Below the pieces are notes generated by a model. It was given only the letters and a program-made list of their open reading frames with translations, did not search any database and was not told the DNA's origin. From Kaistia soli DSM 19436 (GTDB lineage Bacteria; Pseudomonadota; Alphaproteobacteria; Rhizobiales; Kaistiaceae): a stretch of DNA of 64,000 nucleotides. Location: contig NZ_FQUP01000007.1 of NCBI RefSeq assembly GCF_900129325.1, positions 64,501-128,500 on the forward strand. The letters run 5' to 3'. Shown piece by piece: positions 15,158-64,000 of this stretch (positions within the stretch are counted from its first letter, which is position 1; each line of letters begins with the position of its first letter). Position numbers and translations under genes: made by a program.

Positions 15158-15335
15158 GACCAATCCTCGATGTGCCGATCCATCGGATTGTCGCGGTCAC
15201 CGCTTGCGACCCGGCACGAGGCTGGTGTCAGTCTGATCGCATGATGCAGGTTTAGCTTCCCCTCGCGGGGCGGTGACGCCTGGGTGAACTGCTGACCCTA
15301 CACCATCATAGCGGCTCGCTGCGCCGAGCGCCATG

Positions 15336-34303: not shown

Positions 34304-34362
34304 CAGGTGGTGAGGCACGGCCACGCGTTGACTTCCCTCTCGCCCGCGCCTAAAGCCGTCCG

Positions 34363-34409
34363 CGGGACACGCCTCCCCAACGAGGCGCTGCTATCTGAGA
34401 GGGTAGATC
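34363..34409 (+). promoter_or_regulatory. serC-type leader RNA with RBS-sequestering hairpin
   Basis: Two hairpins sit directly before serC: CGCCTC-CCCAAC-GAGGCG (34370-34387) and CTATC-TGAGAG-GGTAG (34391-34406, one G-U pair). The second contains the Shine-Dalgarno (GAGAGGG). This arrangement, and its place before serC-serA in an alphaproteobacterium, match the published serC RNA motif as I recall it. TTGACT-N17-TAAAGC (34328-34356) is a fitting promoter, giving a start near 34363. The ligand, if any, is unknown. A covariance-model hit would be decisive. Confidence 0.65.
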
Positions 34410-35585
<1,176 letters not shown>

Positions 35586-40557: not shown

Positions 40558-40701
40558 TGCTTCCCGCTGACGCATCATCTCGTTCTATCGCTTGATCCTG
40601 TCGCCGCCGAACGCTTCGCTCGGCGGCGATCTGTTTTCTGCGCGTTGGGTCGTCCTTCTCGGCCCTCTTGCGCTTGTGGGACGCTTCGGCCATGCTCCGG
40701 C

Positions 40702-40796
40702 CATTCCGAGGGGTGTTCGCGAACGCGAGCTGAGATGGCCTAGGGCCGAACCCTTCGAACCTGATCCGGGTCATGCCGGCGAAGGGACGGGAAGCT
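40702..40796 (+). promoter_or_regulatory. TPP riboswitch (THI element)
   Basis: The conserved thi-box core is plain: GAGGGGTG (40708-40715), CTGAGAT (40730-40736), GGCC, ACCCTTCGAACCTGATCCGG (40750-40769) and GTCATGCCGGCGAAGGGA (40770-40787). Flanks TTCCG and CGGGAA can close P1. It binds thiamine pyrophosphate and represses what follows, here a permease and an NMT1-like binding protein, so those are thiamine-precursor uptake genes. No clear terminator hairpin was found between the aptamer and the permease, so control is probably at translation initiation. Confidence 0.95.
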
Positions 40797-40862
40797 TGAT
40801 CCAATTGGCTCGTTCATCGCCGACGCGTGGCTTATTCCGTTTGTGGAAGGGGCTGGCCGTCC

Positions 40863-47261: not shown

Positions 47262-47336
47262 GCGCCCTTCGTCTAGCGGTCAGGACGTCGCCCTCTCACG
47301 GCGAAAGCAGGGGTTCGATTCCCCTAGGGCGCGCCA
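47262..47336 (+). tRNA. tRNA-Glu (anticodon CTC)
   Basis: 75 bases including an encoded CCA. Acceptor stem GCGCCCT/AGGGCGC with discriminator G. Anticodon stem TCGCC/GGCGA holds loop CTCTCAC, anticodon CTC, reading GAG. The T arm carries GGTTCGATTC. All arms fold without mismatch. Confidence 0.96.
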
Positions 47337-47906: not shown

Positions 47907-47942
47907 CGAAAACGCCCGCCGGGGAGGAGATCGGCGGGCGTT
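47907..47942 (-). terminator. Terminator of the DUF1127/sRNA unit
   Basis: Minus-strand stem AACGCCCGCC/GGCGGGCGTT (10 bp) with a 12-base loop that contains CTCCTCCCC, followed by TTCGC. It is also the third sRNA hairpin. Confidence 0.75.
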
Positions 47943-48029
47943 CTCATGAGGGGCAGCCGGCGAGGGAGGAGGTTCGCTTGCTGCCAGATCGCGGGGACGG
48001 GGGAGGACCGTCCGCGCGAAGTCTTGAAC
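47907..48029 (-). ncRNA. Cuckoo/CcsR-like sRNA array in the 3' region of a DUF1127 gene
   Basis: Read on the minus strand from the DUF1127 stop, three hairpins expose anti-Shine-Dalgarno loops. (1) 47995-48013, GGACGG/CCGTCC with loop TCCTCCC. (2) 47952-47985, GGCAGC/GCTGCC with inner CGA/TCG and apical ACCTCCTCCC. (3) 47911-47942, a 10-bp stem AACGCCCGCC/GGCGGGCGTT with CTCCTCCCC in the loop, ending in TTTT as a terminator. CCUCCUCCC-loop RNAs co-transcribed with a DUF1127 gene are the hallmark of the CcsR ('cuckoo') sRNAs of Rhodobacter and relatives. The boundaries are structural, not measured. Confidence 0.8.
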
Positions 48030-48176
48030 TTAGTAGCCGACGGAGCGGCGAGCGACCTGATCGATGTCGGCGCGGTTGATGCCGAGATCGGCAAGCTCGC
48101 GCTTGGTCAGGCGGGAAAGCTCATTGTAGGTTTCCCGGTATTTACGCCAGTTCTTGAAGCCATTGACGATGTTCAT
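48030..48176 (-). CDS. DUF1127 small protein
   Basis: 48 residues, basic: MNIVNGFKNWRKYRETYNEL, then RLTKRELADLGINRADI and a RRSVGY end. This matches the YjiS-like DUF1127 domain (RELxDLGIxRxxI). Related tiny proteins such as CcaF1 of Rhodobacter bind RNA and help process the sRNAs encoded behind them. GAAAAGGTG lies upstream of the ATG. The gene is followed directly by the three-hairpin RNA region and shares a promoter signature with the DUF1127 gene at 63717. Confidence 0.93.
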   Translation of the reverse strand: MNIVNGFKNWRKYRETYNELSRLTKRELADLGINRADIDQVARRSVGY

Positions 48177-48273: not shown

Positions 48274-48371
48274 GGCCAAAAAATCGCATGGCTGAACTGC
48301 GGCCAGTGCAAAGCAGCATGGATTGCCCAACTTATTGTGCGATGCAATATCGCCAGGCCTTCCGACCCGCA

Positions 48372-63449: not shown

Positions 63450-63628
63450 TCGGCAGCGGGTCATGCCGACATGAGGCTCAACCGCGCCAGCGATGTGGCC
63501 AGAATCCGGACATGATGTGGCGGTCCGTCTCTAGACCGGCGGAAGATGGCTATTGTGCGGCGCAACATGGAGCCGCAATGTGATATTGCTCTGCATCAAA
63601 CGCAGGCCTGCCATGACTTTTCTCTGAG

Positions 63629-63656
63629 TGCTCATCTCCGGCGGACTGGCCTATCT
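63629..63656 (+). promoter_or_regulatory. Shared promoter signature of the second DUF1127 gene
   Basis: TGCTC (63629-63633), a 17-base spacer and CTATCT (63651-63656) followed by TCCA. Spacing and bases match the element before the DUF1127 gene at 48176, and the distance to the ATG (60 bases) is similar. The rest of the 63450-63716 gap shows nothing else recognisable. Confidence 0.55.
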
Positions 63657-63716: not shown

Positions 63717-63869
63717 ATGGCAAATGGCATCGTTGCTTCCTACAAGAGCTGGCTGAAGTATCGCCAGACCTGCAATGAGCTCAACCGGCTGACCACCCGC
63801 GAGCTTGATGACCTCGGCATCGCACGCGGCGAAATCTCCAAGGTCGCCAAGCGCTCGGCCGGATACTGA
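63717..63869 (+). CDS. DUF1127 small protein (second copy)
   Basis: 50 residues, basic: MANGIVASYKSWLKYRQTCN, then RLTTRELDDLGIARGEI and a KRSAGY end, clearly homologous to the protein at 48030. GAAGAAGGA precedes the start; an out-of-frame ATG lies 5 bases earlier. It is followed immediately by three CCUCCUCCC-loop hairpins. RNA binding or sRNA maturation, as for CcaF1, is inferred. Confidence 0.93.
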   Translation: MANGIVASYKSWLKYRQTCNELNRLTTRELDDLGIARGEISKVAKRSAGY

Positions 63870-64000
63870 GTTTCCAGAATTCGCCGGGAACGAACCTCCT
63901 CCCTCGTTCCCCGCGATTGGCGCGCGGCTGACCTCCTCCCCAGCCCAGCGCCCTTTATAGAGACGCCCGTCGACCTCCTCCCCGACGGGCGTCTTTTTTT
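63870..64000 (+). ncRNA. Cuckoo/CcsR-like sRNA array, three CCUCCUCCC hairpins
   Basis: Three hairpins behind the DUF1127 gene. (A) 63886-63911: GGGAACGA/TCGTTCCC, perfect 8 bp, loop ACCTCCTCCC. (B) 63926-63945: GGCTG/CAGCC, identical loop ACCTCCTCCC. (C) 63961-63994: AGACGCCCGTC/GACGGGCGTCT, 11 bp, loop GACCTCCTCCCC, then a U-run. The stems differ in sequence while the loops are the same, so the loop is the conserved element. This is the CcsR/cuckoo architecture known from Rhodobacter. The window ends in the U-run. Confidence 0.88.
63961..64000 (+). terminator. Terminator of the second DUF1127/sRNA unit
   Basis: Perfect 11-bp stem AGACGCCCGTC/GACGGGCGTCT with a 12-base loop containing CCTCCTCCCC, followed by at least seven T residues up to the window end. 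It doubles as the third sRNA hairpin. Confidence 0.93.

Follow-up and report, generated by a model that had tools for sequence, protein, structure and literature searches.

The alpha-r14 small RNAs of Alphaproteobacteria have been described as a family with three hairpins, a common anti-Shine-Dalgarno (aSD) motif and strongly divergent stems (PMC3927594), and the same three aSD hairpins with divergent stems are described in PMC10746234 and PMC7143759. NfeR1 of Sinorhizobium meliloti is activated by LsrB, carries three redundant aSD motifs, and silences two solute-binding-protein mRNAs as well as ntrB (PMC10746234, PMC8844928). Short DUF1127 genes paired with CcsR-like RNAs are known as the CIN1 locus, cited in PMC10253847. 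The published LsrB site is TGCA-N6-GCAT (PMC10746234), a VtlR motif of Brucella is quoted in PMC12595884, and the regulator gene itself is published in a trxB plus LysR-gene arrangement, that of vtlR/lsrB (PMC7486931). The Agrobacterium gene atu1667 is a DUF1127 gene by its stated orthology to Brucella genes (PMC7486931, PMC12595884).

The locus presented here stands at the end (63717-64000) of the window, which is the whole 64,000-nt stretch of Kaistia soli DNA that was analysed. It is firmly an additional member of alpha-r14, and because both the description of this RNA family and its DUF1127 association in CIN1 are already in print, the locus is of a known type.

Anatomy of the Locus

The first-pass annotation reported a DUF1127 gene followed by three hairpins with one common loop, and the PF06568 match and the RNA fold agree with it (Table 1). 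The predicted minimum-energy fold reaches -62.4 kcal/mol, against -34.1 kcal/mol (sd 3.2) for shuffled sequences (z -8.9), and 0 of 200 shuffles matched the native fold. All three loops are ACCUCCUCCC, 100% identical, and the 10-mer ACCTCCTCCC at 63894, 63931, and 63973 is in each case the exact loop of that fold. The positions 63886, 63926, and 63961 previously given for the stems do fall within them, but the full stems start at 63881, 63919, and 63959. Tandem duplication of a single hairpin was ruled out, as the longest repeat common to all three hairpins is the loop 10-mer and only 12 nt are common to two, which limits the repeat to the 10-12-nt loop.

Table 1. Features of the two DUF1127-alpha-r14 operons in the window.
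Feature	Position	Strand	Evidence
LsrB/VtlR-like LysR box TGCATCAAACGCAGGCCTGCCATG	63592..63615	+	Perfect pattern match; binding predicted from published boxes
Putative weak core promoter GTGCTCA-N16-CTATCT	63628..63656	+	By eye against relatives
DUF1127 gene, 50 aa	63717..63869	+	Pfam PF06568, E 4e-14, 52.5 vs cut-off 23.3 bits
alpha-r14 (NfeR1-type) sRNA, full length of model (1-123)	63876..63998	+	RF02344, 81.9 bits
Hairpin 1, loop 63894-63903	63881..63916	+	Fold, covariation
Hairpin 2, loop 63931-63940	63919..63952	+	Fold, covariation
Hairpin 3, loop 63973-63982, likely intrinsic terminator too	63959..63996	+	Fold, covariation
Second alpha-r14 sRNA	47907..48024	-	RF02344, 61.7 bits, over cut-off; fold
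Second DUF1127 gene, 48 aa	48030..48176	-	
LsrB/VtlR-like box of second copy	48283..48310	-	Pattern match

The 9-mer CCTCCTCCC occurs four times in the 64 kb window against 0.63 expected (0 of 100 shuffles gave four), with three of the four occurrences packed into 88 nt. Across the whole genome it is not enriched (23+15 vs 36+15 for the reversed control), so that its presence is meaningful only in context. Hairpin 3 carries seven T (63994-64000); the window stops within these T, and in the contig a G follows. Together they look like a terminator, which was missed by a terminator consensus scan that permits loops of 3-8 only. Since the DUF1127 stop codon lies 6 nt upstream of the RNA, a separate sRNA promoter would need to sit within the DUF1127 ORF, and the gene and the RNA are likely co-transcribed.

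The genome (5.23 Mb, 15 contigs) contains four ar14 matches over the cut-off, each with a different short DUF1127 gene immediately 5' of it, while a fifth over-cut-off DUF1127 match has no ar14 nearby. In the second copy of the window, one loop contains a perfect 9-mer and the other two are shorter or variant. The two operons are divergent and about 16 kb apart (47907-48176 on the minus strand, 63717-63998 on the plus strand); comparable divergent DUF1127-alpha-r14 pairs occur in three other genomes, G025 (16 kb), G019, and G024 (about 6 kb each).

Three weaker ar14 matches in the genome were dismissed: C8:180627 has no aSD hairpin set, the single aSD hairpin at C4:970005 (L113) arises from the ribosome site of a solute-binding-protein gene read on the opposite strand, and C4:1192640-1192735 on the minus strand (L016) has two hairpins only and no DUF1127. 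The last of these sits between two co-directional ORFs, and one of its hairpins is a 13-bp stem with a perfect ACCTCCTCCC loop; in the two relatives compared, G021 and G016, the low-scoring ar14 matches are unrelated to it. Other Rfam matches over the cut-off in the window are a COG3860 RNA motif (15244-15298, minus), a serC leader (34360-34411, plus), a TPP riboswitch (40699-40804, plus), and a tRNA (47262-47333, plus).

Assignment to the alpha-r14 Family

Among the Rfam 15 covariance models, RF02344 (ar14) matches 63876-63998 with 81.9 bits, well over its gathering cut-off of 58.8. The RNA had been assigned to the cuckoo CcsR family with a DUF1127 partner, with a covariance search by the cuckoo RNA model named as a check. 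The CcsR1 model (RF02791) gives 34.4 bits on the same stretch, under its cut-off of 65.3, so membership in CcsR1 was rejected; the ar7 model likewise stays below its cut-off (32.7 vs 60 bits). What stands of the earlier assignment is the cuckoo type and the DUF1127 partner, whereas the covariance models place the RNA in alpha-r14/NfeR1. The three hairpins with the CCUCCUCCC motif unpaired in each are those of alpha-r14, and the short DUF1127 gene adjoining an aSD-loop hairpin RNA is the arrangement of a cuckoo/CIN1 locus. The "three tandem units" of the first-pass annotation are correctly counted, but three is the ordinary number for alpha-r14.

Linkage and Selection among Relatives

The closest loci belong to Mesorhizobium sp. 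BR1-1-16, whose DUF1127 protein is 100% identical, followed by several Kaistia species. A survey of the family across 28 genomes paired 63 ar14 matches (E<=0.001) with 98 DUF1127 matches (E<=1e-4) by position. A DUF1127 gene was found within 400 nt 5' on the same strand for 49 of 51 over-cut-off ar14 matches, two of the 49 being second units of a tandem pair, and for 55 of all 63; conversely, 53 of the 98 DUF1127 matches were linked to ar14. Direct tandems of two alpha-r14 units behind one DUF1127 gene, with six hairpins expected, lie at G001:C16:81994-82326 and G002:C35:16440-16763.

A detailed set of 33 loci, made up of the best locus of every genome that had a match (27) and of additional copies, contained 98 hairpins of at least five pairs, with a loop carrying CCTCC in 96, TCCTCCC in 88, and CCTCCTCCC in 64. 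For covariation, 17 distinct loci of the genus Kaistia were used, after two without three recognisable loops (L015 and L042) and one duplicate had been removed from 20. With RNAalifold on 29 rows only hairpin 3 was recovered, and misalignment of divergent rows by MAFFT at hairpins 1 and 2 is the probable cause; for this reason, inner stem pairs were counted in register with the loop (7, 4, and 12 pairs for hairpins 1, 2, and 3).

By this count, 390 of 391 inner-stem cells are paired (118/119, 68/68, and 204/204 for the three hairpins; shuffle maxima 115, 59, and 197), with 12 compensatory pairs (4, 3, and 5). Loop identity is 0.994, 0.994, and 0.982, against stem identities of 0.91, 0.74-0.75, and 0.88-0.92. 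These values support selection on the loops and on pairing, in agreement with the earlier claim that the loops are under selection, and the expectation set beforehand as a check, that relatives keep the stems together with identical loops, is borne out.

Upstream Box and Candidate Regulator

A regex, run without a shuffle control, detected a conserved upstream element, roughly TGCATCAnnCGCAnnCCnGCCATG, at 19 of 20 loci of the genus and at 8 of 13 from the rest of the family; by eye the element resembles the LsrB site and the Brucella VtlR motif. The window box has one mismatch to TGCA-N6-GCAT and fits the published GCAT-N3-TG-N3-T form inexactly, again by eye. Searched across the 5.2-Mb genome as a degenerate pattern, the box matches perfectly at just four places, one ahead of each DUF1127-ar14 locus; with up to three mismatches allowed there are 10 matches, vs 1 for the reversed pattern. 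As the short TGCA-N6-GCAT motif occurs in the window at chance level (60 matches with at most one mismatch vs 62.6 expected), only the longer box is informative. Outside the family the box is seldom found: a similar regex matched 3 of 21 loci in a survey of the order, and among ten plasmid loci the box regex matched none and the GCAT-N3-TG-N3-T form three. A sigma-70 consensus scan of the locus found no promoter, and a regex for box plus core promoter matched 9 of 20 genus loci, the window locus not among them.

The genome contains a trxB gene followed by a LysR gene (C4:1567313-1568203, minus strand), in a 4.9-kb stretch that has no Rfam match at E<=0.1, and so no recognised AbcR RNA lies beside the pair. 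Upstream of the locus, no RpoH1-type site was found at up to three mismatches to the S. meliloti consensus. The four perfect LsrB/VtlR-like boxes at these loci argue against heat-stress wiring of the Rhodobacter type, as far as such motifs can tell. A box with two mismatches at G000:C4:1736880-1736908 (plus strand, L099) precedes a 71-aa ORF whose C-terminal half appears vaguely DUF1127-like by eye; a Pfam search of this ORF at E<=0.01 found nothing.

Predicted Targets

Sites complementary to the loop, GGGAGGAG-N4-11-ATG, number 35 in the genome vs 1 for the reversed control. Ten with an ORF of less than 80 aa were dropped, which left 25 target ORFs. Controls were ORFs behind other GGAG ribosome sites, taken from three patterns (11 sites, 30 of 55, and 30 of 69); 5, 11, and 15 ORFs of less than 80 aa were dropped and 4 duplicates removed, which left 36. 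Parts of ABC transporters account for 11 of the 25 targets vs 1 of the 36 controls (Fisher p 9.5e-5, a nominal value for author-chosen patterns). The 11 are nine solute-binding proteins and two permeases, and the sole control is an ATPase. The controls contain more spurious ORFs, since 9 of 36 have no Pfam match vs 1 of 25 targets; with Pfam-matched ORFs only, the ratio is 11/24 vs 1/27 (p 5.5e-4).

Pairing of the loop with GGGAGGAGG is calculated at -19.2 kcal/mol, stronger than the -14.7 kcal/mol of pairing with an assumed 16S tail sequence. The targets are thus predicted, from sequence, to be probably ABC-transporter and nutrient-uptake mRNAs, a class that agrees with the one reported for NfeR1 (PMC10746234, PMC8844928), although transporter genes could carry strong ribosome sites for reasons other than sRNA pairing.

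Separability of the RNA from DUF1127

One locus of the same genome (contig C9) aligns with a locus of the relative G024 (contig C3) in two blocks, 1526 bp in the upstream gene region (78%) and 130 bp in the RNA (85%), which are separated by 361 nt in one member of the pair and 132 nt in the other. The orthologous locus in G024 has no DUF1127 gene, and it has the box, its GCCATG end lying 66 nt ahead of the RNA, as well as three perfect loops. This was established from the two BLAST blocks and from the sequences read directly, as a MAFFT alignment of the junction misplaced the box. Four further genomes, G008-G011, have an ar14-like RNA and no DUF1127 match at E<=1e-4; that of G011 scores 71.5 bits, over the cut-off, the other three are degenerate (35-43 bits), and in two of the four the motif is absent from hairpin 2.

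In the order survey, where stricter filters were applied, ar14 was found at E<=1e-6 in 13 of 61 genomes, and of 21 loci examined, 12 had a DUF1127 gene within 450 nt upstream and 9 had none. Of 41 named DUF1127 loci, 34 gave one or more aSD-type hairpins in a permissive scan of the 700 nt downstream; the box was found in 14 of the 41, none of them in Rhodobacterales and none among five Rhizobium loci (L066-L070).

Ten plasmid loci were chosen by the authors, nine from 324 records and one from 153, and eight of them have an over-cut-off ar14 3' of DUF1127. By eye, a hairpin resembling a terminator and a stretch resembling a promoter seem to separate DUF1127 from ar14 at these loci. Seven plasmids with DUF1127 and alpha-r14 (L235-L238, L242-L244), from Pseudorhizobium, Agrobacterium, Sinorhizobium, Pararhizobium, and Rhizobium, are typed as conjugative, and such a pair is potentially a mobile anti-SD sRNA. 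A 3'-5' exonuclease gene lies upstream in six of the seven annotated plasmid stretches (ten were fetched). Taken together, the survey, plasmid, and G024 data indicate that the adjacency of DUF1127 and the RNA is common, that their transcriptional coupling is variable, and that protein and RNA are separable.

Proposed Mechanism and Alternatives

The anatomy, family membership, covariation, co-orientation, conserved box, and target-class enrichment were all observed here. The explanation that we consider likely is an operon activated by LsrB/VtlR, in which one transcript gives rise to a 50-aa DUF1127 protein and to an alpha-r14 sRNA that silences uptake genes. An LsrB/VtlR-type regulator would activate the operon at the upstream box, a single transcript would cover the DUF1127 ORF and the RNA, and processing downstream of the stop codon and ahead of hairpin 1 would free an sRNA of about 123 nt from the 3' end of the transcript. 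The three identical loops would be redundant, each pairing with ribosome-binding sites of the GGGAGGAG type, and pairing would block translation, chiefly of ABC-transporter solute-binding-protein mRNAs. The DUF1127 protein may either bind RNA and assist its maturation, as CcaF1 does, or bind a sensor kinase, as a DUF1127 protein of Agrobacterium reportedly does. Membership in the family is firm; the mechanism draws on relatives and target-class enrichment, and promoter activation, processing, and translational silencing in particular are modelled on relatives.

A Rhodobacter CcsR-type locus, with RpoH driving a stress operon and a CcaF1-like DUF1127 protein maturing sRNAs that act on C1 metabolism, appears unlikely. 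The gene order, DUF1127 followed by aSD hairpins, is identical and recurs in Rhodobacterales loci, where a permissive scan called as many as 12 hairpins, the CcsR1 model does attain 34.4 bits, and CcaF1 is an RNA-binding DUF1127 protein that aids RNase E maturation of CcsR RNAs (PMC10253847). However, that score is under the cut-off of 65.3, no RpoH1-type site by the S. meliloti consensus was found upstream, and the LysR-type box found instead gave no regex match in the surveyed Rhodobacterales loci. The role in stress and C1 metabolism that the first-pass annotation names for CcsR should therefore not be transferred: the box is LsrB/VtlR-like, no match to the S. meliloti RpoH1 consensus within three mismatches lies upstream, and the predicted targets point to ABC transporters.

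It is still less probable that the hairpins are a mere 3' UTR, stabilising or terminating the DUF1127 mRNA with loops that have no role in trans. Hairpin 3 is terminator-like and the RNA directly abuts the ORF, but loop conservation exceeds stem conservation, the RNA occurs without DUF1127 at the orthologous locus in G024 and in G008-G011 (one over the cut-off), and NfeR1 works in trans (PMC10746234). Least probable, and only marginally to be considered, is an RNA that chiefly binds the DUF1127 protein, as a sponge or in self-regulation, and not mRNAs; the close linkage (49/51) and the RNA binding of CcaF1 (PMC10253847) are as this reading would have them, whereas the RNA also occurs where DUF1127 is absent, 9 of the 21 order-survey loci having none within 450 nt upstream, and the target classes are enriched (11/25 vs 1/36).

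Beyond the likely operon in Kaistia, a broader reading is put forward tentatively, at somewhat short of even confidence: in Hyphomicrobiales, LsrB/VtlR may control, rather than small proteins as such, a unit of protein plus RNA from which the anti-Shine-Dalgarno RNA is the output that is kept, with the DUF1127 ORF optional between box and RNA. This ORF would be co-transcribed in Kaistia, split off by its own terminator and a second promoter on Rhizobiaceae plasmids, and absent in G024 and NfeR1. The presence of the Kaistia-derived box in only 3 of 21 order-survey loci lowers the probability of such a unit. If it were real, DUF1127 deletions that leave the RNA intact would under-report the regulon.

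Comparison with Known Systems

The element itself is ordinary for Alphaproteobacteria, and its value is comparative. The locus connects three lines of research, namely the VtlR/LsrB regulon, DUF1127 proteins, and NfeR1/CcsR RNAs, and the analysis provides, for a non-model genus, a short list of transporter targets open to testing. The one-box DUF1127-alpha-r14 architecture, together with the G024 locus lacking DUF1127, bears on whether atu1667 acts as a protein or a regulatory RNA, a question posed in PMC7486931. The literature searched, partly available as excerpts, yielded no statement of the combined LsrB-DUF1127-alpha-r14 operon, and priority is not claimed; a search for Kaistia and small RNA yielded papers that looked unrelated.

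The locus is most like alpha-r14/NfeR1 (Smr14C2, SmelC397; RF02344) of S. meliloti, with which it shares three hairpins, CCUCCUCCC in each loop, and divergent stems, as well as, by sequence and prediction only, an LsrB-like box and the ABC-transporter target class. There are six copies per genome in S. meliloti (PMC7143759) and four here. In NfeR1, the LsrB site lies at -72 to -57 of the RNA start, with the box directly before the RNA (PMC10746234), whereas here the DUF1127 ORF stands between them and the GCCATG end of the box lies 268 nt before the RNA.

The SmelA075/SmelA099 models (Reinkensmeier 2011) and cuckoo/CIN1 (Reinkensmeier and Giegerich 2015) likewise combine aSD modules in varying number with short DUF1127 genes; in the features tested here no difference from them was found, and the locus is treated as a member. 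The CcaF1-CcsR1-4 operon of Rhodobacter sphaeroides (RF02791) has the same order, DUF1127 followed on the same strand by an RNA with CCUCCUCCC loops, presumably in one transcript, but it has four RNAs where this locus has one three-hairpin unit, and the LysR-type box and the CcsR1 score of 34.4 of 65.3 bits also set the two apart. Finally, the VtlR-activated atu1667 of Agrobacterium and three short DUF1127 genes of Brucella resemble the present locus in having a short gene under a VtlR/LsrB site; unlike here, they are treated as protein genes, or the choice between protein and sRNA is left open (PMC7486931).
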